Below are positions 6,747 to 20,777 of a stretch of DNA of 32,319 nucleotides, in pieces. Positions within the stretch are counted from its first letter, which is position 1. Each line of letters starts with the position of its first letter. The stretch spans positions 1 through 32,319 of the forward strand of contig CAJXKR010000004.1 of NCBI GenBank assembly GCA_913055815.1, read 5' to 3'. A program made the position numbers and the translations under genes. This DNA comes from an uncultured Desulfohalobiaceae bacterium. GTDB taxonomy: Bacteria; Desulfobacterota; Desulfovibrionia; Desulfovibrionales; Desulfothermaceae. The notes beneath the pieces are model-generated. The model was not told the origin of the DNA. It saw nothing but the letters and a program-made list of their open reading frames with translations, and ran no database searches.

Positions 6747-8783
6747 TTAACTTGCTTTGTCTAATTTTACCGCGCATACTTTGTATTCCGGTATTTTGGC
6801 TATGGGATCAATGGCGGGATTGGTCAATTCATTGGCATTGCTTTCCACAAAATGAAAGGGTAGAAATACAGTTCCCGGTTCAACACGATCGGTCACCAGG
6901 GCAGAGATTTCGATATTACCCCGCCTGGAGGAGACCTGAACCTTGTCTTTCTGCGATATTTGGAGCTTGTCCGCGTCTGCGGGATTTATTTCTACAAATC
7001 CGTTTTCAACCGCAGAATTCAGTGTGGGCGAATTCCTGGTCATTGTACCAGTATGATAGTGGGCAAATACGCGACCGGTGGTTAGCCACAAGGGGTATTC
7101 TTCATCCACTGTCTCTGCAGGGGCCTTGTGTTCTATGGCGTGGAACTTGCCTTTTCCACGTGCAAATCCGTCCTTGTGCAGGTATTTGGTCCCGGGATGG
7201 GACTGATCGGTACACGGCCACTGCAGGCCCTCGCCTTCCAGGCGCTCAAATGTTATGCCACCGTAGGATGGGGTCATTTCGGCTATTTCCTGCATGATTT
7301 CTTCTGCCGAAGAATATTGCATGCTGTAGCCCAATTTGTTGGACAAATCTTGGATAATTTCCCAATCCCTTTTGCTCTCACCCACGGGCTCAATTGCTTC
7401 TCTTACCCGGCTCACACGCCTTTCAGTATTGGTGAAAGTCCCTTCCTTTTCCGCGAATGAGGCACCGGGCAGTACCACGTCTGCCAGTTCCGCGGTCTCG
7501 TTCAGGAATATGTCCTGTACAACTACTAATTCAGAGTTTTGCAACGCCTTGCGGACGTGATTGCAATCAGGATCACTCATTACCGGGTTTTCTCCCATGA
7601 CGTAAAGTGCCTTGAGCGAACCGTCCTCAAGTCCGGCAATCATTTCCGGTATGGCAAGCCCGATCTGATTGGATAGCTCAGCGTTCCAGGCCTGGGAGAA
7701 TTTTTGATTGATATTTTCATTGTTTACCGCTTGATAACCGGTAAAAACATTGGGCAATCCGCCCATGTCGCACGCCCCCTGGACGTTGTTCTGGCCTCGC
7801 AGGGGATTTACCCCGGTGGCATATTTGCCCACGTTTCCGGTTAACATGGCCAGGTTGGCGAGTGATTTCACGTTGTCCACACCAGTGGTGTGCTGGGTTA
7901 TGCCCATGCAGTAAACAATAGAGGAGGTCTCGGCAAGGGCAAAGTATTCGGCAATCTTTTCGATGTCCTGTTTGTCTATATTGGTAATCTCGGATACCTT
8001 TTCCGGGGAGTAGTTTTGTATTTCCTTTTGGAAGTCTTCAAAGTCCTCGGTGTAATTATCTATGAATTCCCTGTCCTCCCAGCCATTTTGCAGGATTACG
8101 TTCATTATGCCGTTCAAGAGGGCCACATCGGTGCCCAATTTTTGATGTACCTGGATATCTGCAATGTCCCCGATTTGTATCTTGCAGGGGTCTGCCACTA
8201 TTACCTTGGCACCTTTCTCCTTGGCCCGGAATATGCGGGAAGCTATGATCGGATGCGAGGAGGTGGTGTTTGAACCGGTAATAAAAATGCACTTGGCATC
8301 TTCCAGTTCGTCGATGGAATTAGTCATCGCTCCGCTTCCAAACGAGGCGGCAAGCCCTGCCACCGTGGAAGAATGTCAGAGCCGCGCGCAGTGGTCTATA
8401 TTGTTAGTACCTATCCCTGCCCGGGCAAACTTCTGGAAGACGTAGTTCTCTTCATTGCTCACCTTGGCGGAAGCCAAAAATCCGATGCTGTCCTTGCCGT
8501 GGTTATTTTTGATTTCCTTTAGCTTGGATGCGGTATAATCAAGGGCTTCCTCCCAGGAAACCTCGGTAAGCTCACCCTGTTTTCTAATCATGGGCTTGGT
8601 AAGCCTTTTTTTGCTTTGCACGAACTCGTGCACGTTCCAGCCTTTTATACACAGGGTTCCCTGGTTTACAGGACTGGTTTTGCAGGGTATGGTACCCACA
8701 ACTTCCCCGTCCAAAACTTCCAGATAGAAGTTGCACCCGCACCCGCAATAGGGACATGTGGTAAGTACTGTTCTATAGTCCAT
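6747..8783 (-). CDS. fdhA: Formate dehydrogenase catalytic subunit, selenocysteine-containing
   Basis: The track shows two pieces (6747-8363 and 8376-8846) in the same frame, separated only by a TGA at 8378-8376. Read as Sec, the product is 678 residues, the usual size of a cytoplasmic molybdo/tungsto-formate dehydrogenase. The start chosen is ATG 8783 (MDYRTVL), with GGAG 7 nt upstream. The N-terminal [4Fe-4S] ligands TCPYCGCGC and GTLCIKG are followed by the bis-MGD domain. The active-site stretch is DHCARL-U-HSSTVAGLAA with Sec136, exactly where FdhA/FdhF carry Sec or Cys. The C-terminal molybdopterin dinucleotide-binding domain is complete. No Tat signal is present, so it is cytoplasmic. 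It is the last gene of the Hdr cluster and would feed electrons from formate to MvhD/HdrA. Confidence 0.96.
8346..8364 (-). promoter_or_regulatory. Putative SECIS hairpin for fdhA Sec136
   Basis: On the transcript, GGTGGCA / TGCCGCC (7 bp, one G-U) encloses the loop GGGCT. Counting the U of UGA as 1, it spans nt 15-33, the spacing seen in the E. coli fdhF SECIS. Confidence 0.7.
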
Positions 8784-9155
8784 GTTATGACTCCATGTTC
8801 GAAGTTCGATGTTAATATGAAAAAGTTTTAGGGTTTTATGGTTCAAGGTTCCACGTTCACGGTTGAAGAAAATATACCCAGCTAGATAATCGAGTTCCCC
8901 AATTTTCTAATTCTCTAATTTCTCTGCACTAATTCCCAATTCTCTTAATAACACTACAGCGAAAGTTACTTTTTATATCCGTCATTCCAGTGAAAGCAGG
9001 AACCTAGACAAAGAACTGGATTCCGGCCTTCGCCGGAATGACAAGAATGGTTGCAATTCAAAGTTTCACTGTAGTGATAACCAATTTTCTAATTCTCCAA
9101 TTTTCTCTGCACTAAAAACCAATTCTCTAATTTCTTTGCACTAATTATCTAGTCT
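8784..9155. other. Repeat-rich spacer between the FdhB-like gene and fdhA
   Basis: This 372-bp spacer has no ORF worth keeping. It contains CCAATTCTCTAATT-type pyrimidine-rich repeats at about 8890-8945 and 9080-9150, flanking a 125-bp MITE-like element. Next to fdhA lies low-complexity sequence (GGTTTTATGGTTCAAGGTTCC). Confidence 0.6.
8952..9076. mobile_element. MITE-like 125-bp inverted-repeat element
   Basis: The ends are CACTACAGCGAAA and TTTCACTGTAGTG, inverted repeats that match at 12 of 13 positions. They are flanked by ATAA on both sides (8948-8951 and 9077-9080), a possible target duplication in A+T-rich DNA. The interior contains CCGGCCTTCGCCGG, a short hairpin, followed by AATGAC. 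A partial relative lies at 22678-22724. No transposase is encoded. Confidence 0.6.
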
Positions 9156-9944
9156 CTAGCCAACCACATTGAACGGTGGCTTTTGTTCATCAGTAATACC
9201 GGTGGTATAGCCAAAGTCCTGTTCCATGATTTCCGACACCTTCTTGTAAAGCGTACGCAAGGGAATATCAGCTGGGCAGGCTTCTTCGCAGAGTCCGCAA
9301 TCTATACATCTGCCTGCCATGTGTACCGCCCTGGTCAAGTGGAATATGGGATTTTCAGGGGGAAGATTATAAGTTTGTATCAATTGCTGGTTTTCCAGGC
9401 TGCATTCGTTACAGAAGCACATGGGGCATACATCCCTGCAGCCGAAGCATTTGACGCATTTGTCGAATTCCTTTTGCCAGTATTCCATTCTCCCTGGAAA
9501 ATCCATTTCCTCTACGGTATCAACTGAATTGAAAGATACAGGGTTGGCTTTTTCACCAAAGCCCTCGGTATTGGTGTATGGCTGAAAGCATTCACATTTG
9601 TCAGCCAATTCCTGGGGACAATTGATACCCACCAAAACAACCTTGTCCAGATCTATTTGGTTCCAGATATGCAGGGCATTTAATCCCCTTTCATCGCATC
9701 CGCGTACCAGAATACCAAAGGTGTCTTCCGGATATTTCCTGCTCAATGTAACCAGGATCTTGTCCAAAGGGTATCTGCTGTCCCCGGGTTGTTCTTTTTC
9801 CCCCAGGTTCAGATTTTCCAATTCCTCTTCAGTGGTGAAAAAGTGCGGCCCGATGTGGCCGTTTTTTTCAACAAGGCCGATAAAGCCTTTTATTTGCTGG
9901 GAAGCAAGTAGTTCTTTTACTTTGGATTTTACCTCTTCAATCAT
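9156..9944 (-). CDS. FdhB-like two-[4Fe-4S] electron-transfer protein
   Basis: A 262-residue soluble protein. Residues 1-150 form a domain resembling the beta subunits of F420-type hydrogenases and formate dehydrogenases (FrhB/FdhB), with Cys83, Cys109, Cys117 and Cys119 as scattered extra cysteines. Residues 163-181 (CVKCFGCRDVCPMCFCNEC) are very Cys-rich. Residues 213-223 carry a second ferredoxin motif, CIDCGLCEEACP. Together they predict at least two [4Fe-4S] clusters. Its position between mvhD-1 and fdhA suggests it wires formate dehydrogenase to MvhD/HdrA. No nucleotide-binding motif is obvious to me, so direct use of F420 or NAD is not supported. The start at 9944 has only a weak ribosome-binding site. 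Confidence 0.75.
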   Translation of the reverse strand: MIEEVKSKVKELLASQQIKGFIGLVEKNGHIGPHFFTTEEELENLNLGEKEQPGDSRYPLDKILVTLSRKYPEDTFGILVRGCDERGLNALHIWNQIDLDKVVLVGINCPQELADKCECFQPYTNTEGFGEKANPVSFNSVDTVEEMDFPGRMEYWQKEFDKCVKCFGCRDVCPMCFCNECSLENQQLIQTYNLPPENPIFHLTRAVHMAGRCIDCGLCEEACPADIPLRTLYKKVSEIMEQDFGYTTGITDEQKPPFNVVG

Positions 9945-10223
9945 GAGTATCTCTAAATTTTTTATAGGTTAAAAACTATGTATTCTTTTCCAATGTCCTT
10001 TTTCTTGTGTGGATGACCTTAACATGAAAAAGTTTTATGTTTTAGAGTGTTAAGGTTTTAAGTAAGAAAAAGAACCAATAGCCTGTTTATTCAACAAGTT
10101 GAGTACCTTTTCATGCTTCGTTGTGCCCGCCAGGGCATGGGAGTTAGTATGAAAGACTGTTATCTGTTATCTTGGAATGCCAGTACTAAACCAGATAACT
10201 GATAACTATTAACTGGTTTCAAC
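9945..10223. repeat. Spacer with short palindromic GATAAC repeats
   Basis: No gene is seen. At about 10158-10218 the words GTTATCTG and CAGATAACTGATAACTATTAACTGG occur. The same words recur in inverted form near 15033-15047 and in the 30198-30233 hairpin. The segment GAAAAAGTTTTA near 10025 also has a near copy at about 8820. Confidence 0.5.
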
Positions 10224-10667
10224 CTAGGCAGCACCCTGCAGCTTAATATCACCGGATTTCAGAGGTGAAGGCCCCAGTTTGCGCAGGGTTTCCACAAAAT
10301 CGATTACTTCCGCCTTGAATTCCGGTGCTTCGGCGGAGGAAACCCATCTGGCCCTTAGCCTCTCCTGTTCAATACCGTTGAAGGCGAGTAGTTGCTGCAG
10401 AAAATTGATCCTTTTCTTTGCGGAATAATTACCGTACAGGTAATTGCAGTCTCCCAGGTGTCAACCGCCCACAAAGATGCCGTCAGCTCCCTGCTGCAGG
10501 CCAAGCAGCATATGGTGGAAGGATACGCTGCCGCTGCACATGACCCGAATAATCCGTATATTACTCGGGTACTGAAACCGACTGACCCCGGCCAGGTCAG
10601 CAGCTGCGTAAGCTCACCAAGTACACAGGAAACTGATTATTTTGGGCTCAAAATTTTGTTCTGTCAT
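10224..10667 (-). CDS. mvhD: MvhD-like [2Fe-2S] subunit with two predicted selenocysteines (MvhD-1)
   Basis: The track misses this gene because two in-frame TGA codons break it. Reading through from ATG 10667 (GGAAG upstream) to TAG gives 147 residues covering the whole MvhD family. The N-terminus [18 protein letters not shown] has Sec18 (TGA 10616-10614) where MvhD-2 in this window has Cys ([15 protein letters not shown]). After RIIRVMCSG comes GG-U-HLGDCNY with Sec69 (TGA 10463-10461). MvhD carries electrons between the hydrogenase or formate dehydrogenase and HdrA. It lies between the hdrA-like gene and the FdhB-like gene, as expected for the formate-linked module. Conservation on both sides of both stops argues against decay. 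Methanogen VhuD is a known selenoprotein relative. Confidence 0.9.
10427..10445 (-). promoter_or_regulatory. Putative SECIS hairpin for MvhD-1 Sec69
   Basis: A perfect 7-bp stem AATTACC / GGTAATT with loop TGTAC lies at nt 19-37 from the UGA. MvhD-2 has a closely similar hairpin at the equivalent place. Confidence 0.65.
10581..10601 (-). promoter_or_regulatory. Putative SECIS hairpin for MvhD-1 Sec18
   Basis: GCTGACC / GGTCAGT (six Watson-Crick pairs plus one G-U) with loop TGGCCGG spans nt 16-36 from the first UGA. Confidence 0.6.
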
Positions 10668-10681
10668 ATTTATCTTCCGTT

Positions 10682-10726
10682 GTAAGTTGTAAGTTGTAAG
10701 TATTAAGTTATAAGTAGTAAGTTGTT
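10682..10726. repeat. Low-complexity GTAAGTT direct repeats
   Basis: TAAGTTGTAAGTTGTAAGTATTAAGTTATAAGTAG-type degenerate direct repeats occupy the spacer upstream of mvhD-1. The remainder up to 10816 is similar simple sequence (ATCACCTAACCACATAATC). Confidence 0.6.
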
Positions 10727-10816
10727 GAGGAAATATATATCCTAAAACTTTAACACCTTTAGACCCTTAAAACCTAATCACCTAACCACATAATCACGTA
10801 ACCACGTAAAAACTTA

Positions 10817-12508
10817 TCATATCGCAGCCCTTATCTGGGCAAACAGTTGATCCGGCTTGTATCCCTTCAGCTTGATGCTGTGTGAAGGGCAAGTTGCAGC
10901 ACAGTTGCCGCATCCCTTGCAAAGGACCTCGTTTATTTCGCAGGCGTTTATTTCCGGATTGTAGGTAATAGCCTGATAGGGGCAGGTATCGATGCAACCC
11001 AAACAACCGATACAAGACTGCGGATCTATTTCCGCAACAATGGCACTGGAAACGAGCTTGTCCTTGAACAGGATAGTGCTGACCCTGGAGGCAACGCCAA
11101 TGCCCTGGGATCTGGCTTCTTCTACTGTTGCCGGGTACCTGGCGGATCCACAGACAAAAATACCGTCTGCGGCAAAGTCCAATGGCCTCAACTTGGCGTG
11201 TGCTTCCAGGAAAAAGTTGTTCTGGTCTGTTGGTACCCGCATCATCTGGGAAATCTTGCCTGCGTCTTCCCTGGCTACCAATGGAGTTGACAAAACTGCC
11301 AAATCATAGGGTAGCTCCACTGTTCTCCCCAAAATATTTTGATAAAAGCTGACCTTGTCTCCGGATAGTTCTGGCGGGTTTTCCGGATCATATACTTCGA
11401 AGTTTATCCCTTTACCCCTGGCGTCCCAGAGCATTTTCTCCTTTTCAGTTCCGTACATCTGCATGTCCCTGTACAGTATGTGGATATTAGCCTCCGGGTT
11501 CAATTCCTTCAGGTAGAGTGCATTCTTAACCGCGCTCATGCAACAGATCCTGGAGCAATAAGTCCTTTCCTCGCATCTGGCACCCACACATTGGATCATC
11601 ACGATATTCTGAGCCTGGACAGTACCCTGGGCCATTTTTGATTCAAGTTCCATCTGGGTTATTACCTTTTCACCGTCGTAACCAAATAGGCCGTGGGGTT
11701 TCAAGGGTTCGGCGCCGGTGGCTACCACTATGCAGCCTACGTTTTCCGAAATATTTTCACCGCCCTTGGTTTTCAGATCTACTTGGTAGTTCCCGATATA
11801 TCCGCCCACGCTCTCTACTTCGGTTTCCTTGTATATCCTGATATTGGAATGATGCGTAACATTGTCCACCAGTGAACTTATCCAGTCCTCGGCTTTTTCG
11901 TTGTACGGAGCAAGCTTGTTTATGGACTTAAGCAGCCCACCGAATTCCGCCTCCTTTTCCACCAGATACACCTGGACTCCCATGGATGCCAGGGCCTCTG
12001 CAGCGGATAGTCCGGCAATCCCACCTCCGATAACCAAGGCTTTGGCTACCAGGGAAGTCTGTATGTCTTCCTGGGGTTCAAGGTAGGCACTCTTGGCCAC
12101 CCCCATGCGCACTAGCTCCTTGGCCTTTTGTGTGGCGTTTTGTTGTTCCTGCATATGCACCCAGGAACACTGATCCCGGATGTTTACCATTTCGAACAGG
12201 TAGGGATTCAGTCCCGCTTCTGCGCAGGAGGATGCAAACAGGGGTTGATGGGTCCTGGGAGAGCAGGAGGCAACAACCACTCGATTGAGAGCGTGTTCCT
12301 GGATTGCGTTCTTGATCTCGTTAACTCCTGCCTCGGAACATGTATACAGATTTTCCTTGGCAAAAGCCACACCCGGCAATGAGGCCACGTACTCGGTAAC
12401 TTCGCTGCAATCCAGGTGTCCGGCAATATTGGACCCGCAGTCGCAAATAAATACACCTATTCTCACTTCGTCCTGATTGTTGTTTTGATCTGGACTTTGT
12501 TCATTCAT
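10817..12508 (-). CDS. HdrA-like FAD/Fe-S protein, second HdrA-like unit of the cluster
   Basis: 563 residues, soluble. Residues 16-140 are the HdrA N-terminal domain (RIGVFICDCGSNIAG, VVVASCSPRTHQPLF, NIRDQCSWVHM). The FAD-binding GGGIAGLSAAEAL lies at 161-173, and the CVGARCEERTYCSRICC cluster-ligand region is near 305-321. The C-terminus holds two [4Fe-4S] ferredoxin motifs, CIGCLGCIDTCP and CKGCGNCAATCP. It lacks the inserted ferredoxin and the FPTNDCAxU/C motif of classical HdrA. In size and order it matches the last 560 residues of HdrL in this window, so it looks like the separated second HdrA unit. It starts at ATG 12508 with AAGGAA upstream. It lies directly downstream of hdrA and probably works with it as one flavin-containing electron-transfer unit. 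Confidence 0.85.
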   Translation of the reverse strand: MNEQSPDQNNNQDEVRIGVFICDCGSNIAGHLDCSEVTEYVASLPGVAFAKENLYTCSEAGVNEIKNAIQEHALNRVVVASCSPRTHQPLFASSCAEAGLNPYLFEMVNIRDQCSWVHMQEQQNATQKAKELVRMGVAKSAYLEPQEDIQTSLVAKALVIGGGIAGLSAAEALASMGVQVYLVEKEAEFGGLLKSINKLAPYNEKAEDWISSLVDNVTHHSNIRIYKETEVESVGGYIGNYQVDLKTKGGENISENVGCIVVATGAEPLKPHGLFGYDGEKVITQMELESKMAQGTVQAQNIVMIQCVGARCEERTYCSRICCMSAVKNALYLKELNPEANIHILYRDMQMYGTEKEKMLWDARGKGINFEVYDPENPPELSGDKVSFYQNILGRTVELPYDLAVLSTPLVAREDAGKISQMMRVPTDQNNFFLEAHAKLRPLDFAADGIFVCGSARYPATVEEARSQGIGVASRVSTILFKDKLVSSAIVAEIDPQSCIGCLGCIDTCPYQAITYNPEINACEINEVLCKGCGNCAATCPSHSIKLKGYKPDQLFAQIRAAI

Positions 12509-12844
12509 AACTTGTTCCTTGGTGTCTGTGTATGTGTAAGCAATTGGTTATATTGATTTCGTTAATCTACTCACTGATTCTCTAAGTCTCTTTTTTCAAA
12601 CAACCAATTATCCAGTTCTCTAATTCTCAAATTTTCCAACTCTCCAGTTCTCTAATTCTCCAATTTTCTTAATCCCCAATTCTCTCTTCATTCTTAACCA
12701 ATTCTCTAATTCTCCAATTTTCTTAATCCCCAATTCTCTCTTCATTCTTAACCAATTCTCTAATTATCCAATTTTCTTAATCCCCAATTCTCTCTTCATT
12801 CTTAACCAATTCTCTAATTCTCCAATTCTCTCTGCACTAGGTAG
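12509..12844. other. Repeat-filled spacer between hdrA and the hdrA-like gene
   Basis: No ORF is seen in these 336 bp. Apart from the 54-bp tandem array (12644-12838), positions 12560-12643 contain degenerate relatives of the same AATTCTCTAATTCTCC words. Confidence 0.7.
12644..12838. repeat. 54-bp tandem repeat, about 3.6 copies
   Basis: Units start at 12644, 12698, 12752 and 12806 (last copy partial). Each reads CCAATTCTCTAATTCTCCAA followed by TTTTCTTAATCCCCAATTCTC and ends TTCATTCTTAA. Copies differ by single bases (for example TTATCC for TTCTCC at about 12765). On the transcribed strand the array is purine-rich. Confidence 0.95.
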
Positions 12845-14395
12845 TTAAGATGCCTTGCTCACTCGATCTGATCCTGAACCGCCAAGACTGGTCAAGACCT
12901 GCACCGCCCTGGATGAGGCACTGCTTGCCTGGGCTACTGACTCCGGAATATCCATGGGATCGTTGGCGCATCCACATATAAAAATACCCGGCTTGGTAGA
13001 GTCCAAGGGATTTTTGTGATCGGTTTGGAAGAATCCGAATTCGTTGATCTCTATACCCAGTATCTCAGCCAGGGGCTTGGTACTGCTGCTGGGTTCGCAG
13101 GCAGTTGCCAGGATAACCAGTTCAAATTCCTCGGATTTGACTTTCTGTTCCTTGGTATCCTCGTAGGTAAGCACCGGATTTTTGTTTGGAGATTCGGTGA
13201 TTTCCGCGACTCTTGCTCGCTTGTAGAAAACGTTGGAACTGTTTTGGCTCCTGATCTTGTATTCCTCAAAACCTTTGCCCACTGCCCGTATATCCATTCC
13301 GAAGATGGTGGAAGTGGTTTCCGGATCGTGTTCGTGGGCAATTATTGCTTCCTTTATGGAATGCATACAGCAGTATCCGGAACAAAACGGGAAGAAGCGC
13401 TTGTCCCTGGATCCAACGCACTGAATAAAGGCCAATTTGGAGGCATCCTTGAAATTCTCAGCCTGTTCCAGCAGTGGCCGCAGTGTTTCCTTGAGCCCCA
13501 GGTACTCCTCGTATTTGTCAGCCCATTTTTTCCTTTCCTTGTCTTCCGGGTAGTTGTCCTGTTTGTATTCGGAGTAGAAGGTCTCAGTGTCCTGTTGGTA
13601 TTCGTCTTCGAATTTCCCTAGGCTCTTTTCCGCCTTTTGCAGTTTTTTCTCCAGGTCCTGGATCTGATTTTTTATCCTCCGGTCAGACGGCCTCTCCAGG
13701 TGTCCCTCGGTGGGTCCGCTGGCACCCAGCATCCTCTCGAACTCCATGGATGTTAGAACATTGGGAATCTGGTTGTATCTGTACTCCGGTATCCTGGTAG
13801 GATCGAAAACCTTGTATCCGGTGGCCACTATTATGGCACCCACCTCAAGTTCCAGTAATCGGTCCTCCTGTTCGAAATTTATTGCATCTGCCTGGCAACT
13901 CTTTTGGCAGATACCGCACTTTTTACCTTGGAAATGCCTGCAGTAATCCGTGTCTATGGTGAATGTGGAAGGAATGCCCTGTGCAAACCAGCTATAAATT
14001 GCTTTTCTGTTGCTAAGTCCCTCGTTAAAGGCATCAGGTACAGTAGTGGGGCACTTGGCTGCGCAATTACCGCATCCGGTGCACTTGTCCTCGTCCACAT
14101 AGCGGGCCTTTTTGCGTACAGTGGCCAGGAAGTTTCCCGCCTCTCCGCTTATATTTTCCACTTCGCTGTAAGCAAGCAATTCAATATTTGAATGTCGACC
14201 GACATCCAGCATCTTGGGAGAGAGAATTCAAATGGCGCAATCGTTGGTGGGAAAAGTCTTGTCCAGTTGGGCCATTTTTCCCCCGATACTGGGCAGGCTT
14301 TCCACCAAGTACACCTTGTAATTCATTTCTGCCAGATCCAGGGCTGACTGTATTCCGGCTATTCCTCCACCTATTATGAGAATATCCTTGTTCAC
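12845..14395 (-). CDS. hdrA: HdrA-type FAD/Fe-S electron-bifurcation subunit, selenocysteine-containing
   Basis: The track shows only 12845-14212. Upstream, the same frame continues through a TGA (14230-14228) to GTG 14395, which has AAGGAG at 7-nt spacing, giving 516 residues. The N-terminus has the Rossmann FAD motif [33 protein letters not shown] follows with Sec56, where most HdrA proteins have Cys. Next come [12 protein letters not shown] (about 105-116) and a [16 protein letters not shown] cluster (152-167). The FAD domain then resumes with [18 protein letters not shown]. An extra segment of about 80 residues (241-319), Glu/Lys/Gln-rich and predicted coiled coil, interrupts the FAD domain; HdrL lacks it. 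It should bifurcate or transfer electrons from formate via MvhD. The classical HdrA N-terminal domain is absent here and is found in the downstream hdrA-like gene. Confidence 0.92.
14191..14206 (-). promoter_or_regulatory. Putative SECIS hairpin for HdrA Sec56
   Basis: GATGTC / GACATT (one G-U) closes the tetraloop GGTC, which resembles the GGUC apical loop of the E. coli fdhF SECIS. It lies at nt 25-40 from the UGA, slightly further away than usual. Confidence 0.55.
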
Positions 14396-14525
14396 GGTAA
14401 TTCTCCTTGTTTTATTTTATGTGGTGGTTTAAACAAAAACCGTCCAATTTATTCAAAAAACTGCGAGTCATGGTATAATTGCCTGTTTTTTCAATGTCCA
14501 GTTTTAGTTACCATTTATTAAGGAT

Positions 14526-14972
14526 TTACGCAGAAATTGTTTCACTCGATTTTTTCGTTTTGTCAAATAAATCCAAGGGGCCCAAGGATCTTATTTGTTC
14601 TGTGAATTCCTGGGCAACTTTTGCAAAAAGATTGCCTTCTGCAGAAGAAATCCACTTCAACATCATTCTGTTGGTATCGATTCCCAGTGTATCCACAAGT
14701 TCCTTGGTGGTTTCAAACATTTTTTCCGCTTTTAAATTACCATCCAGGTAATGACAATCCCCGATGTGTCAGCCGGATACCAGCACACCATCTGCACCTT
14801 TTTCAAAAGATTTGAGAATGAAGTTGGCGTTTACTTGTCCGGAACACATTACCCTGATTATCCTTAGATTGGGAGGGTATTGGAATCTACTTACTCCGGC
14901 CAGGTCGGCTGCGGAATAAGCACACCAATTGCAGGCAAATGCTATTATTTTGGGATTAAATTCTGTAGTCAT
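14526..14972 (-). CDS. mvhD: MvhD-like [2Fe-2S] subunit, selenocysteine-containing (MvhD-2)
   Basis: The track pieces 14769-15008 and 14526-14720 share one frame, joined through a TGA (14771-14769). The start ATG 14972 (MTTEFNPK) is chosen because it aligns with the MvhD-1 start; an upstream ATG at 15008 would add 12 residues. The product is 148 residues. [15 protein letters not shown] has Cys17 where MvhD-1 has Sec18. RIIRVMCSG follows, then [15 protein letters not shown] with Sec68. MvhD proteins bring electrons to HdrA. Lying just downstream of hdrL, it is probably the partner of HdrL rather than of the separate hdrA pair, so each HdrA module has its own MvhD. Confidence 0.93.
14736..14752 (-). 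promoter_or_regulatory. Putative SECIS hairpin for MvhD-2 Sec68
   Basis: A perfect 6-bp stem ATTACC / GGTAAT with loop TGGAT lies at nt 20-36 from the UGA. The stem is the same as in MvhD-1 although the loop differs. Confidence 0.65.
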
Positions 14973-15085
14973 ATTTATTACCGCTTTTTGAGTGTTCAAG
15001 TTTGACAATGTCTATAAAAAAAGATTCCTGTTATCAGTTATCTGTTTAAAAACGGGTGTTCCCGGATAATATATAACAATAACTA

Positions 15086-18000
15086 TTAACAAATCTCCCT
15101 TTCCAGTGCGGTTCCCACCATGGTAAGTATTTGATCATCTTCAAAATTCCTGACCCCTGCTGCTCCGGTCGGACAAGCCACTGCACAGGATCCACAACCC
15201 TTGCAAAGTGCTGCCTGCACTCTGGCAACCATCCTACCATTGTCCAGTTCTTCCAAGCCGATTGCATTGTAGGGACATGCCTCAACACATTCTCCGCATC
15301 CACGGCACAACTCTTCGTTTACTTGTGATACTTCTCCTTCCACTGTGATTTGATCCTTGGAAAGGATCACCGCCGCCCGGGAAGCAGCTGCTTTGGCCTG
15401 GGAAATACTTTCTTCCAACGGTTTGGGGTAGTGGGCCATTCCAGTGACAAAGAGTCCATCATTGGCGAATTCCACTGGCCTCAACTTGGCGTGGGCCTCC
15501 ATAAAGAAGTTATCCTCGGTCAAGGGAAGCTTGAACATTCCGGCGATGGTGTCGTTGTCCCGGGGTACTATAGCTGAGGCCAGTACAACAAGGTCAGTGC
15601 CTATCTCCATATTTTGTTGGAGGATATGATCCTTGACCCTTACCTTTAGATCGGAATCTTCTTTTGTGACCTCTGGCTTCTCCTCTAGATTGTAGCGTAT
15701 AAATACTACTCCCAATTTCCTGGCTTCCTGATAAAGTTCCTCTCTCTGTCCATATGTCCGGATGTCCCTGTATAAGATGTATATTTGCATTTCAGGATTG
15801 TTTTTCTTCATGCTTATTGCGGATTTTATGCTATGTGTACAGCACACCTTGGAACAATAGGGGCGTTCAGGTTCCCTGGAGCCCACACATTGGATGAATA
15901 CCGCAGTATTGGCCTGTTCGATCTTGTTGCTTTTGTTAGCCATCGTTGCATCAAGATCCAAGTGGGTAAGTATCCGTTCATCTTGACCGTAGAGGTATTC
16001 CCCGGGTTTGTATTCTTCTCCCCCGGTTGCGATTATTACTGCACCGTGTTCCAGGTTGATATCGCTCGAACCAGAGACAATAGTGGTTTTGAAGTTGCCC
16101 ACGAAGCCTGAGGCCTCTTTTAACTCTGCTTGTGTATATACATCGATCAGTTTATGATCTTTTACCTTTTGGACCATATCTTTGAGTTCTTTCTGGACAT
16201 CGTCACCTTTCCAGGTGGAATTCAGGTGCAGTGCGTTCCCACCAAGTTCAGGGGATCTTTCCACCAGATAGGTGTGAAATCCCTGCTCAGCCAAACCCAG
16301 GGCAGAGCTCATTCCCGAGACACCACCTCCGATTACCATTGCGTTGTTGTTTACTCCTATGGAAGGCTGGTCCAGTGGTTGTTCCCTTCTGCATCTTGAT
16401 ATTGCCATGCTGACCAGGTCTTTTGCTTTTTCCGTAGCCTGTTCCTTTTCCCTGCTGTGTACCCAGGAGCAGTGATTGCGTATGTTGGCCATCTCGAAGA
16501 GATACTTATTCAGTCCCGCATCCTGAAGTGTTTCTTGAAAGAGGGGTTCGTGCGTCCTGGGTGTGCAAGCCCCTACCACAACCCTGTTAAGTCCCTTTTC
16601 CTGGATAATTTCCTTCATCTTGTCCTGGGTATCCTGGCTGCAGGTGAACAGGTTGTCCTCAACATATTCCACATTGGGCAGTCCCCTGACGTGTTCCACA
16701 ACTTGGGGTACATCCACTATACCTCCTATATTGGAACCGCAATTACAAACAAAAACCCCTATTCTGGGTTCTTGGTCAGCTATGTCCTTTTCCTTGGGAT
16801 ATGTCTTGGACTGGGCTTGACTCCCCCTGGCTTGCCACAGGTCCTTTTCTGCCTCACAAGCCGCTGCACTGGCTTCTACAACAGAACCCGGGATGTCCTT
16901 GGGTTCCTGAATTGCTCCGCAGGCATATATCCCGTCCCTGGAAGTTTCTACAGGATTGAAGGTGAAGTTGTCTACCAGATTGTCCTTGTCCAGGTCTATA
17001 TCCAATCTTTGACTGAGCTCAATAAACTGAGGGGAAGTCTCCATGCCGGTGGACAGGATTACCAGGTTGAAAGTCTCTTTTTGTAGTTCACCGTTTTCAT
17101 CCATGTATTCCAGGATGAGATCTCCGGTTTCTCTGTCTTCTTGCAATGAATGAATCTTGGAAGGAACAAACCTGACCCCTTGCTCGTCCTTGGCGCTCTG
17201 GTAGTATTTTTCAAAGTCCTTTCCGAATGCCCTCATGTCCATATAGAATATGGCTGTGTCCAAGGGTTCCTCGGTATGTTCCTTGGCTATCATGGATTGT
17301 TTTATTGCGTACATGCAGCAAACCGCAGAACAGTAAGCGTTGTTGCACCTGTTGATATCCCGGGAACCAACGCATTGAAGCCAAGCAATCTTCCTGGGAT
17401 GTGCGTGATCTGATGGTCGAATCAAATCTCCCTGAAATGGGCCGGTTGCACTCAGTATCCTTTCGAATTCCAGGCTGGTAATGACATTTCCAAAATTCTT
17501 GTATTGATATAGGTCCAGGTTGGAGGGATCAAAGGATTGAAAACCTGCGGACAGAATGACTGACCCTACATTCAACTCCATTTGGGCAGACTTTTGGTCG
17601 TGTTCTATTGCTTCGGTCTGGCATACTTCAACGCATTGCATGCATTCGGAACAAATGCCGCAATTTAGGCACCTATCCGCTTCTCTGCTTCCTGAATCCG
17701 GATCATATCCCTGTTCTACTTCCAGAAAGGAACACTTCCTCTCTTCCGGGTTCAATTCCGGCATGCTACACCTGGATGATTGGGTGATATCATCCGGGAT
17801 GGGACGATAATTGGGCTCTTCTGGTTCCTCGATAGGTGTTCTGCCTGCCTGCATGTCTTCACCCTGGATGTAGCGGTACATGGATTCAGCTGCTTCTCTC
17901 CCGGCAGCAACAGCACCAATAGCGATCCATGGTCCGGTTTGGGCATCTCCGCCTGCAAATACCCCGTCGAGATTAGTGGAATAAGTGATAGGATCCACAT

Positions 18001-19546
18001 CTATAGTGCCCCAGCGAGTGAATTCAAAGTCTTCCAAGTCTTCAAGCATGGATATGTCCGGTTTTTGGCCTATAGCAGGAATAACCTGATCTACTTGCAA
18101 ATCGTATTCGCTTTCCGGTATGGGTATTGGCCTCCGCCTTCCGGATGAATCCGGTTCTCCCAGTTCCATTTGAATACAACGCAGTCCGGAAACCTTTCCA
18201 TCCCTGGTTTGTATTTCCTGGGGCGCTGCCAGAAAATATATATTGATTCCCTCTTCCAGGGCTGCTTCCACTTCTTCCGGCAATGCCGGCATTTCTTCCC
18301 TGGTCCTGCGGTAGATAATATTTATCTCTTGGGCTCCCAGTCTGCATACCACCCTGGCTACGTCGATCGCTACGTTACCTCCCCCCACAATGGCTACTTT
18401 GTTTCCTATCCAGGGACTTCCAGTAGTGTTTATTTCTCTTAGAAAATCCACTCCCTGTCTAACCCCGGTTGACTTTTCCCCCGGGATTCCCAGGGGCATC
18501 CCAGTATGTGCGCCAATGGCCAGGTAAACCGCTTTGTTCCCTTGATCAAAGAGTTCGTTTAGTTGGAAGTCTCTGCCCAAAGCGGAATTGGTCTTTATTT
18601 CCACACCTAAATTGGTGATGACTTCTATTTCCTGATCCAGGATTTCACGCGGCAGTCTATGTTCAGGTATTCCCATCCTTAGCATTCCCCCTGCATGGGA
18701 ATTTGCCTCGTAAATCGTGGATTTTATACCTTTTCTGGCAAGGTGATAAGCTGCCGATAGTCCGGCTGGACCGGATCCTATAATAGCAACACTTTCTTGT
18801 TTTGTTGGTTCACAGTTTATTTGTACCTGCCTGGGATCGAATTGATCAGCTGCCAGTCTTTTCAAAGCCCGTATAGCAACTGGTTCGTCTACTTCGCACC
18901 TTCTGCAGGCATCTTCGCAAGAACGGGGGCATACCCTGCCCAAAATGCCAGGCAAAGGCAATTCTTGCATAATAATGTTCAGTGCCTGCTCGTATTTTCC
19001 CTGTTTGACCATTTGTACATATCCCTGGACATTCAATCCAGCGGGGCAGGCCTTTCTGCAAGGGGCATTGTCCAGTTTGGAAATTACATAGGCACCCGGT
19101 ACTGCCTGGGCATAGTTCCGGTAGGCAGCTTTTTGGGTAGACAGGCCCACATTGTATTCACTCTTTATTTCCACCGGGCAGACTTGTTCGCATTCTCCGC
19201 ATCCTGTACATTTGTCTGTATTAACATAACGCGGAGCTTTTTCCATATTTACAGTGAAATTGCCCTGTTCTCCCTGTACCGATTTTACCTCGGAGAGGGT
19301 GTGTATTTCTATATTGATGTGCCGGCCGACCTCGACCAGTTTTGGAGAGATGATTCACATTGCGCAATCGTTGGTGGGAAAAGTCTTGTCCAGTTGGGCC
19401 ATTGCACCACCAATACTTGAAGACTTGTCCACCAAGTAGACGTAATATCCTGAATCCGCAAGATCCAAAGCGGACTGCATTCCAGTGATTCCGCCTCCTA
19501 ATACAGCAATTGAACCTTGAATATCTTTTGGGGAACTGGATGCCAT
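15086..19546 (-). CDS. hdrL: HdrL: giant HdrA-GltD-HdrA fusion, selenocysteine-containing
   Basis: The track gives 15086-19246 and 19355-19546. They are one frame through a TGA (19357-19355), giving 1486 residues with GGGAGG before ATG 19546. Residues 1-160: FAD motif [28 protein letters not shown] (Sec64), [12 protein letters not shown]. Residues about 162-625: a complete GltD/NfnB-like unit with [17 protein letters not shown] motif [11 protein letters not shown] (about 257) and a second dinucleotide motif [12 protein letters not shown] (about 386), probably for NAD(P)H. Residues about 626-910: the HdrA FAD domain resumes ([33 protein letters not shown]). Residues about 926-1486: a second HdrA unit ending in two ferredoxin motifs. 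Similar HdrL proteins are reported in Desulfobacterota. It could exchange electrons among NAD(P)H, ferredoxin and the Hdr/Mvh chain; the direction is unknown. Confidence 0.9.
19322..19339 (-). promoter_or_regulatory. Putative SECIS hairpin for HdrL Sec64
   Basis: CTGGTCG / CGGCCGG (7 bp, two G-U) with loop AGGT lies at nt 19-36 from the UGA. Confidence 0.6.
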
Positions 19547-19661
19547 TTATTCCTCCCAAAGGAAATTGTTGTTTTGGTTTAAATCTAGTTTCCGAATTGA
19601 AAGCTTACTATTTCCGCATCCAGAAATCAGTAATTTCAGGATGTGCTCTACTTAATCGATT

Positions 19662-20777
19662 TTATTCCAAATGTTCAGACAAATATGTGTATATATCCTT
19701 AATATTTATTCCTATATCTGTATTGGTCTTGGAACATGAAAAATGGATTTGGCATTTAGGGCAAGCGGTTATCAATGTATTTGCACCAGTGTCTTCAGCC
19801 TCGGTAAGCCTTTCCATCTGCATGGCCTTGGAACAGCTGGAACACTCCATCCAGGCAGTTGTTCCGCAACACAGGGCACCTTCTTTGTTTCTGGGCATTT
19901 CTGTCAGAGTGGCTCCTGGTACCTGCTTGAGAATTTCTCTGGGTTGTTGGTATATACCTGACCATCTGCCCAATCTGCAAGGATCGTGATATGTTATGGT
20001 CTCTTCCTTGTCCGGTGTGAACGATATATTGGCTTCCGGAATTCTGGAAGCCAGGAGTTCGCTGAGATGTATTACTTCAAAGGGCAAGTTTCCAAAGTAC
20101 TTGGGGTAGTAGTACTTAAAGTTCATATAACCTTCCGGACAGCCGAAGATTACAGTTGATGCCCCGCTTGCCTTTATTTGTTCGATATTCTTTTTCCCAA
20201 GTTCCAGGAATTGCTCCTCGTTTCCGCTCCACAGTGCATCGTGTCCGCAGCAACATTCCTCGTTACTTATTACCGGTTCTATATCTACTTTATTCAATAA
20301 TTTAAGCATGCTTTTTGCTATATCAATACAGGAAAGATCCAGATACCTGAAGAAGATATCGTAATACGGCAGACAACCTACAAAGAGGTAATATTCACCT
20401 TGTTCACGGAATTTTCCTGCGTCTGTCGCCCATGCAGTCCTGTTTTGATTTATGTTTCCGGTTTGTAGATTTACCAAGGTATGAAAGATGCCATGATGGC
20501 TCTCGTGGGGAAAGTTGTTTCTTTCCCTGGCTTTTGCCCTATAGGAACGGATGAATTCGGGAAAGTCTATTTCCACTGGGCAGCGGTCGCTGCACCTGGC
20601 GCAGCTTAGGCATGCCCATATGTCCCGGTTTTGCAGTATGTCCTCTTCTTGTTCCTCTAATGTCCTTTTTATCATTTGCCTGGGGGAGAACCTAGTATCC
20701 ACCTGACTGATGGGGCAACTGCCAGTGCATACCCCGCATTCCATGCAATAATTGATTTGTTCGCTTGTAAGTTCCAT
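19662..20777 (-). CDS. hdrD: HdrD-like protein: HdrC + HdrB fusion with CCG domain
   Basis: A 371-residue soluble protein. The N-terminal HdrC-like part has two [4Fe-4S] motifs: C11/C14/C17/C21 (CMECGVCTGSCP) and C56/C59/C62/C66 (CLSCARCSDRCP). The C-terminal HdrB-like part has two CCG repeats. The second is complete (DPCRLG, LCCG, CPKC). The first has GCLPYY and ECCCGHD but ends GCPEG, losing the final Cys of CxxC. It may therefore bind a single noncubane [4Fe-4S] disulfide-reducing cluster, as in one-CCG relatives such as DsrK. No membrane helices are present, unlike complexes with HdrE. It is the first gene of the cluster, divergent from degP, and should be the thiol/disulfide-reactive end of the complex. 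The natural disulfide substrate cannot be read from sequence. Confidence 0.88.
   Translation of the reverse strand: MELTSEQINYCMECGVCTGSCPISQVDTRFSPRQMIKRTLEEQEEDILQNRDIWACLSCARCSDRCPVEIDFPEFIRSYRAKARERNNFPHESHHGIFHTLVNLQTGNINQNRTAWATDAGKFREQGEYYLFVGCLPYYDIFFRYLDLSCIDIAKSMLKLLNKVDIEPVISNEECCCGHDALWSGNEEQFLELGKKNIEQIKASGASTVIFGCPEGYMNFKYYYPKYFGNLPFEVIHLSELLASRIPEANISFTPDKEETITYHDPCRLGRWSGIYQQPREILKQVPGATLTEMPRNKEGALCCGTTAWMECSSCSKAMQMERLTEAEDTGANTLITACPKCQIHFSCSKTNTDIGINIKDIYTYLSEHLE

Follow-up and report, generated by a model that had tools for sequence, protein, structure and literature searches.

Gene Organization of the Block

The window analyzed here is the whole stretch of 32,319 nucleotides (positions 1 to 32,319 of contig CAJXKR010000004.1) from the draft metagenome-assembled genome of an uncultured, anaerobic Desulfohalobiaceae bacterium (GCA_913055815.1), and it carries a block of genes related to formate dehydrogenase (Fdh), heterodisulfide reductase (Hdr) and MvhD, in the order hdrD, hdrL, mvhD-2, hdrA (Sec half), hdrA (N-terminal-domain half), mvhD-1, fdhB, and fdhA (Table 1). 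Six in-frame TGA codons, all on the minus strand, lie in fdhA, mvhD-1 (two codons), hdrA, mvhD-2, and hdrL, and judging from the sequence evidence set out below they are almost certainly read as selenocysteine (Sec). A first-pass annotation of the same DNA had reported six such codons in five neighboring genes, and both their number and their coordinates hold; its remark that the open reading frame (ORF) track breaks all five genes is reproduced by standard ORF calling, which splits every TGA-bearing gene. Automatic annotation will split these genes wherever the arrangement occurs, and because ORF callers do so, surveys of Hdr and Fdh in sulfate-reducing and related bacteria undercount them.

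Table 1. Genes, in-frame TGA codons, and predicted selenocysteine insertion sequence (SECIS) elements of the block. TGA codons are cited by their lowest base; lengths of TGA-bearing genes, in amino acids (aa), are read-through lengths.
Feature	Position	Strand	Length (aa)	Description
fdhA	6747..8846	minus	699	formate dehydrogenase catalytic subunit; likely start ATG at 8783
fdhA TGA aa157	8376-8378	minus		context CARLUHSSTV
fdhB-like	9156..9944	minus	262	Fe-S protein, no Sec; Pfam: Fer4 only
mvhD-1	10224..10667	minus	147	FlpD PF02662, E 9.6e-49; double-TGA orthologues
UGA69 codon and predicted SECIS	10427..10463	minus		AATTACC-TGTAC-GGTAATT
mvhD-1 TGA aa69	10461-10463	minus		context GGUHLGDC
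UGA18 codon and predicted bacterial SECIS	10576..10616	minus		stem ...CTGACC-TGGCCGG-GGTCAG...
mvhD-1 TGA aa18	10614-10616	minus		context CTWU
hdrA, N-terminal-domain half	10817..12508	minus	563	no Sec; aligns with 5odc_A 2-237 and 378-647
hdrA, Sec half	12845..14395	minus	516	FAD domain and inserted ferredoxin, without N-terminal domain
hdrA TGA aa56	14228-14230	minus		context DCAIUILSPK
mvhD-2	14526..15008	minus	160	likely start ATG at 14972; PF02662, E 1.1e-53; Cys at CxxC
mvhD-2 TGA aa80	14769-14771	minus		context SGUHIGDC
hdrL	15086..19546	minus	1486	PRK12771, 559 bits (cut-off 516); HdrA2, 972 bits in four pieces
hdrL TGA aa64	19355-19357	minus		
hdrD-like	19662..20777	minus	371	no Sec; HdrC-type ferredoxin and two CCG (HdrB-type) domains

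Evidence for Selenocysteine

The states of the TGA sites were read in 80 loci of named genomes and in genomes sampled later. The MvhD sites of relatives carry no codons but TGA and those for Cys, with the exception of Ser in two cases at CxxU. TGA and Cys also predominate at the sites of the HdrA type and of FdhA, where remoter or paralogous hits have other residues as well; the earlier statement that each UGA occupies a position where relatives or a paralog in the window have Cys is confirmed. Among the FdhA homologues compared, 20 have Sec and seven have Cys. The FlpD/MvhD family has five conserved Cys/Sec positions, which read CUCUC in mvhD-1 and CCCUC in mvhD-2; both proteins score above the PF02662 cut-off. 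A peptide-pattern scan of contigs wrote Sec positions as Cys and hence favors Cys relatives; it serves as a Cys comparison set and is unfit for counting Sec cases. Family similarity was also said to continue on both sides of each TGA, and it does so in the families to which the read-through products belong and in the raw ratio of nonsynonymous to synonymous change (pN/pS), which is ~0.08-0.44 either side of the UGAs in correctly matched orthologues, indicating purifying selection, with synonymous sites close to saturation (the rows for mvhD2 of L049 and L052, where wrong ORFs had been matched, were set aside).

A SECIS-type hairpin with G in the apical loop follows all six TGAs, with predicted energies of -10.8 kcal/mol in fdhA, -12.8 (UGA18) and -4.9 (UGA69) in mvhD-1, -8.1 in hdrA, -4.7 in mvhD-2 (TGA80), and -9.1 in hdrL. 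Each site was scored by its best hairpin with G in the first two loop bases and a loop start 14-33 nt past the codon, as in published models of the bacterial SECIS. With thresholds picked after the distributions had been seen, a hairpin at or below threshold was found at the MvhD GUH site in 53/57 Sec vs. 4/140 Cys genes, at the HdrA site in 45/46 vs. 8/113, at the MvhD CxxU site in 21/22 vs. 39/174, and at the FdhA site in 20/20 vs. 3/7 (Mann-Whitney p values lie between 3e-29 and 4e-4, without correction for relatedness). Sec and Cys genes are under comparable constraint as proteins, and so differ mainly in their choice of codons. Phylogenetically independent pairs in the expected direction amounted to ~3.7, 3.0, and 0.9 against ~0 in the opposite one, the rest being equal, which are too few contrasts for significance alone.

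The individual hairpins behave in the same manner. That of UGA18 is present in TGA orthologues and mostly weaker or located elsewhere in TGC/TGT homologues, and that of UGA69 is kept in TGA orthologues and lost in Cys orthologues; in one same-family genome (G007) an A-T pair of the UGA69 stem is swapped for G-C (GTTACC...GGTAAC) with the stem retained. Most close Sec genes spell the HYLYGN-type residues at the GUH site as CATTACCTGTA(C/T)GGTAAT, and the spelling is free otherwise. A contrast exists even within the window, where no hairpin follows Cys29 of mvhD-2, while the homologous Sec18 of mvhD-1 is followed by one of the energy given above. Outside bacteria, HdrA and MvhD of Candidatus Borrarchaeum, an Asgard archaeon (L095), carry TGA at the same sites; a local hairpin is absent at its HdrA TGA, as expected if archaeal SECIS lie elsewhere, and only weak at its MvhD site.

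As for the decoding machinery, the draft genome encodes tRNA-Sec (UCA anticodon, 81.7 bits) and selB, and thus the part of selABCD, proposed earlier as the check on Sec, that could be placed in the draft genome itself is limited to these two; selA and selD are found in same-family relatives. Among 20 relatives, selA occurs in 16 and selD above the cut-off in 19, and G001, which has the whole six-Sec block on board, has both. The selD of most relatives (L155-L164) is itself a TGA-containing (Sec) gene. Several points weigh on the other side: in the draft genome, which is 85% complete and in 353 contigs, selA was not found and selD gave weak below-cut-off matches only, and its two selB genes (L001 on G000:C234, L002 on G000:C82) are only 89% identical over 2.8 kb, which makes it likely that this assembly is a mixture from two related organisms.

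That the UGAs might be real stops, left in pseudogenes, in truncated forms or by sequencing errors, is suggested by the draft state of a metagenome-assembled genome and by the breakage of all five genes in ORF calling. However, identical TGAs recur in independent assemblies, other families included, conservation runs on past each of them, the hairpins go with TGA and not with Cys codons, and all six fall on Cys-type sites, an outcome with a chance probability of p ~8e-10 where Cys and Sec make up 91/3008 codons (3.0%) across the five genes; on these grounds we reject this explanation as highly improbable. Reading through UGA in five genes could also arise if the codon were reassigned genome-wide or decoded as Cys, Trp, or Gly, but TGA still works as a stop here, because it is the terminal codon of five of the 16 other window genes checked, none of which has an internal in-frame TGA; together with a SECIS-type hairpin after every internal TGA and the presence of tRNA-Sec and selB, this makes reassignment hardly credible, even less so than real stops, and it too is rejected. 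Sec at the six codons is supported by several lines taken together: TGA interchanges with Cys, the frame is conserved to either side, the hairpins are specific to TGA, the draft genome has tRNA-Sec and selB, and same-family relatives have selA and selD.

Distribution and Evolution

The block is kept with the same TGAs in four further genomes of the family (G001, G004, G005, and G007): all six lie on one contig in G001 and over two contigs each in G005 and G007, and five are present in G004, where the start of hdrL lies beyond the contig end. The draft of G010 (L063) looks error-prone, since its hdrL is spread over many frames with mixed stops. Other families of the phylum have related clusters that contain four or five Sec (up to five in L196, L198, L199, and L201).

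Among 348 genomes of the class, five have MvhD-1 orthologues with two TGAs, and all five belong to the family of the window; a confinement of double-Sec MvhD to one family was considered; a 395-genome sample of the phylum, which yielded ten further genomes from four other families, led us to reject it. A tree was built from 78 MvhD proteins with the two Sec/Cys sites masked. In it the N-terminal Sec requires one change and defines a clade of 19 rows (15 double, 4 single), eight changes are required at the second site, and Cys-Cys forms lie outside the clade; the protein is short and many forks are unsupported. A wider tree of 175 rows gives three changes at the first site. The double-Sec MvhD would form a clade across several bacterial families, with one putative change to N-terminal Sec. 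The one-contig genome G708 (L196, L206) has MvhD-1 homologues as Sec-Sec, Sec-Cys, and Cys-Cys. The window's own draft genome has six more MvhD genes with in-frame TGA (contigs C13, C30, C62, and C103; L055-L058), several of which adjoin Sec-containing HdrL-type genes, and eight of its 11 FlpD domains contain Sec.

Subunits and Asymmetric HdrA Pairs

FdhA matches profile TIGR01591 with 916.7 bits against a cut-off of 666.25 and has the Sec/Cys metal ligand. The fdhB-like protein corresponds mainly to the ferredoxin domain at the C terminus of the FdhB in solved Fdh-Hdr complexes, matching residues 272-379 of the 383-aa FdhB 9t1s_M with a weak second stretch at 84-128; in this alignment the F420/FAD-binding region is mostly missing, which suggests that the shortened FdhB acts as a pure electron wire. 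The hdrD-like protein, whose CCG domains match PF02754 (E 6.2e-30), adjoins hdrL in G001 and G005 as well.

What the first-pass annotation called hdrA does include a Sec-bearing gene; it is in fact an asymmetric pair of two genes, a Sec half and an N-terminal-domain half. The full set of HdrA features is not found in one chain and is split over the two: the product of 10817-12508 has the N-terminal Fe-S domain, the FAD domain, and C-terminal ferredoxins, with Trp at the position of Cys197, and Sec56 of the Sec half (12845-14395) corresponds to Cys197 of the HdrA crystal structure 5odc_A in a gap-free alignment. In the sequence of another HdrA structure, 9sfi_A, this position is X (a non-standard residue). 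In HdrL, the full set lies inside one fused chain, its first half being a Sec-bearing HdrA into which a GltD-like NAD(P)H domain is inserted (~aa 157-640), the only NAD(P)H module in the block, and its second half, from aa 928, an HdrA that includes the N-terminal domain and has Lys in place of the ligand. Cys197 of one HdrA has been described as a ligand to the cluster in the N-terminal domain of its partner, and HdrA genes in tandem as dividing these features between them in complementary fashion (PMC9012536). Both HdrA-type Sec proteins here have Sec at the Cys197 position; since this residue ligates the Fe-S cluster of the partner, and the partner halves are without it, the alignments suggest that the asymmetric HdrA pairs are joined through selenium.

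Proposed Electron Transfer

Taken as a whole, the region 6747-20777 very probably encodes a formate-linked flavin-based bifurcating or confurcating Hdr system with Sec at six UGAs, in a bacterium that named relatives and gene content place probably in the Thermodesulfobacteriota. For the mechanism itself, formate-linked bifurcation is the course we somewhat favor. SelB and tRNA-Sec would read the SECIS hairpin after each UGA; FdhA, with Sec and Mo/W, would oxidize formate or reduce CO2, and the shortened FdhB would wire electrons to the double-Sec MvhD-1, which would feed the FAD of the asymmetric HdrA pair. Within this pair, the Sec half would give selenium, at the Cys197 position, to a [4Fe-4S] cluster that lies in the N-terminal domain of its partner. 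HdrL would be that same HdrA pair in fused form, with an inserted GltD module for NAD(P)H, and together with MvhD-2 and HdrD it would connect NAD(P)H with ferredoxin and with a disulfide as acceptor, which HdrD would reduce. Having Sec in these places would adjust or accelerate the redox reactions of metal clusters and thiols. Direct electron transfer from Fdh to HdrABC through VhuD has been documented in Methanococcus maripaludis (PMC6019823). It counts against the proposed system that gene order and homology are the source for the joining of the two HdrA systems in a single complex, for the direction in which electrons flow, and for the HdrD acceptor.

The Sec assignments would be equally right if the block encoded two machines, a formate-linked FdhAB-MvhD1-HdrA and an NAD(P)H-linked HdrL-MvhD2-HdrD, possibly working toward CO2 reduction or without bifurcation. 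Indeed, HdrA-MvhD1-FdhBA occurs without the remainder in some other families (L202, L203, and L205), G708 and G726 hold hdrL, mvhD2, hdrD, and hdrA with no fdhA within the stretch fetched, and the NAD(P)H module is confined to HdrL. On the other hand, the whole block stands together in five genomes of the same family, with contig breaks in three. We regard two machines as quite possible, if short of probable, and continue to prefer the single formate-linked system.

A further step, which we put forward tentatively and would not expect to hold in full, is that selenium sits at every hand-over, in the formate catalyst, twice in the [2Fe-2S] MvhD-1, and as ligands across two HdrA interfaces, so that native Se-ligated Fe-S clusters may have been selected as a set. 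The use of Sec for Cys at presumed metal-cluster ligands, beyond catalytic thiols, is poorly understood. Nature provides a series here, with orthologues of MvhD as Cys-Cys, Sec-Cys, Cys-Sec, and Sec-Sec and the HdrA ligand as Cys or Sec, and because this series exists the role of selenium in electron bifurcation is directly testable.

Comparison with Known Systems

Individual Sec-containing FdhA, HdrA, and MvhD are known, as the first-pass annotation had stated (PMC2702500, PMC11097638). Its view that a bacterial cluster with selenium at nearly every redox step is unusual goes too far, as Desulfobacterium autotrophicum HRM2, M. maripaludis, and several families of the phylum are comparable; the block is not a new kind of system. 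In the open-access literature we found no description of a six-Sec Fdh-linked block, of a bacterial double-Sec MvhD clade, or of Sec at the complementary HdrA interface.

In D. autotrophicum HRM2, the sections consulted of the genome paper list Sec in hdrL1, hdrL3, hdrA1, hdrA2, four mvhD, and several fdhA, describe HdrL as a glutamate-synthase/HdrA fusion, and place hdrA/hdrL next to mvhD, some of these loci also having fdhB and fdhA; by contrast, those sections report neither a six-Sec cluster or double-Sec MvhD nor the order hdrD-hdrL-mvhD-hdrA-hdrA'-mvhD-fdhB-fdhA (PMC2702500). M. maripaludis has Sec in HdrA, VhuD, VhuU, FwuB, and FdhA (PMC11097638), and its Hdr-Vhu-Fdh resembles the block in that Sec occurs in HdrA, VhuD, and FdhA of one bifurcating system (PMC11097638, PMC2933860), whereas its SECIS are archaeal and lie outside the coding sequence, not in hairpins just after UGA as here, and it includes hydrogenase and formylmethanofuran dehydrogenase parts and no HdrL. 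FrhD/MvhD with as many as two Sec, noted for archaea, are listed in a 2026 review, along with an operon of four selenoprotein genes, frhA-frhD-hdrA-glpC, in Deltaproteobacteria (PMC13188914). Two Sec per MvhD and clustered selenoprotein genes are thus shared with the FrhD/MvhD/VhuD described there, but multiple Sec were reported in archaeal FrhD/VhuD, whereas the present proteins would belong to a widespread bacterial clade, and their cluster here is Fdh-linked and has no FrhA (PMC13188914). The tandem or fused HdrA of ANME archaea and Moorella thermoacetica show the same complementary N-terminal-domain and Cys197 halves, with Cys at the position where the two-gene pair and the HdrL fusion have Sec (PMC9012536). 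Finally, type III HdrA also has a GltD-like NAD(P)H module inside HdrA, and while it was described in methane-metabolizing archaea, the form found here is bacterial, contains Sec, and is fused to a second HdrA (PMC12054007).

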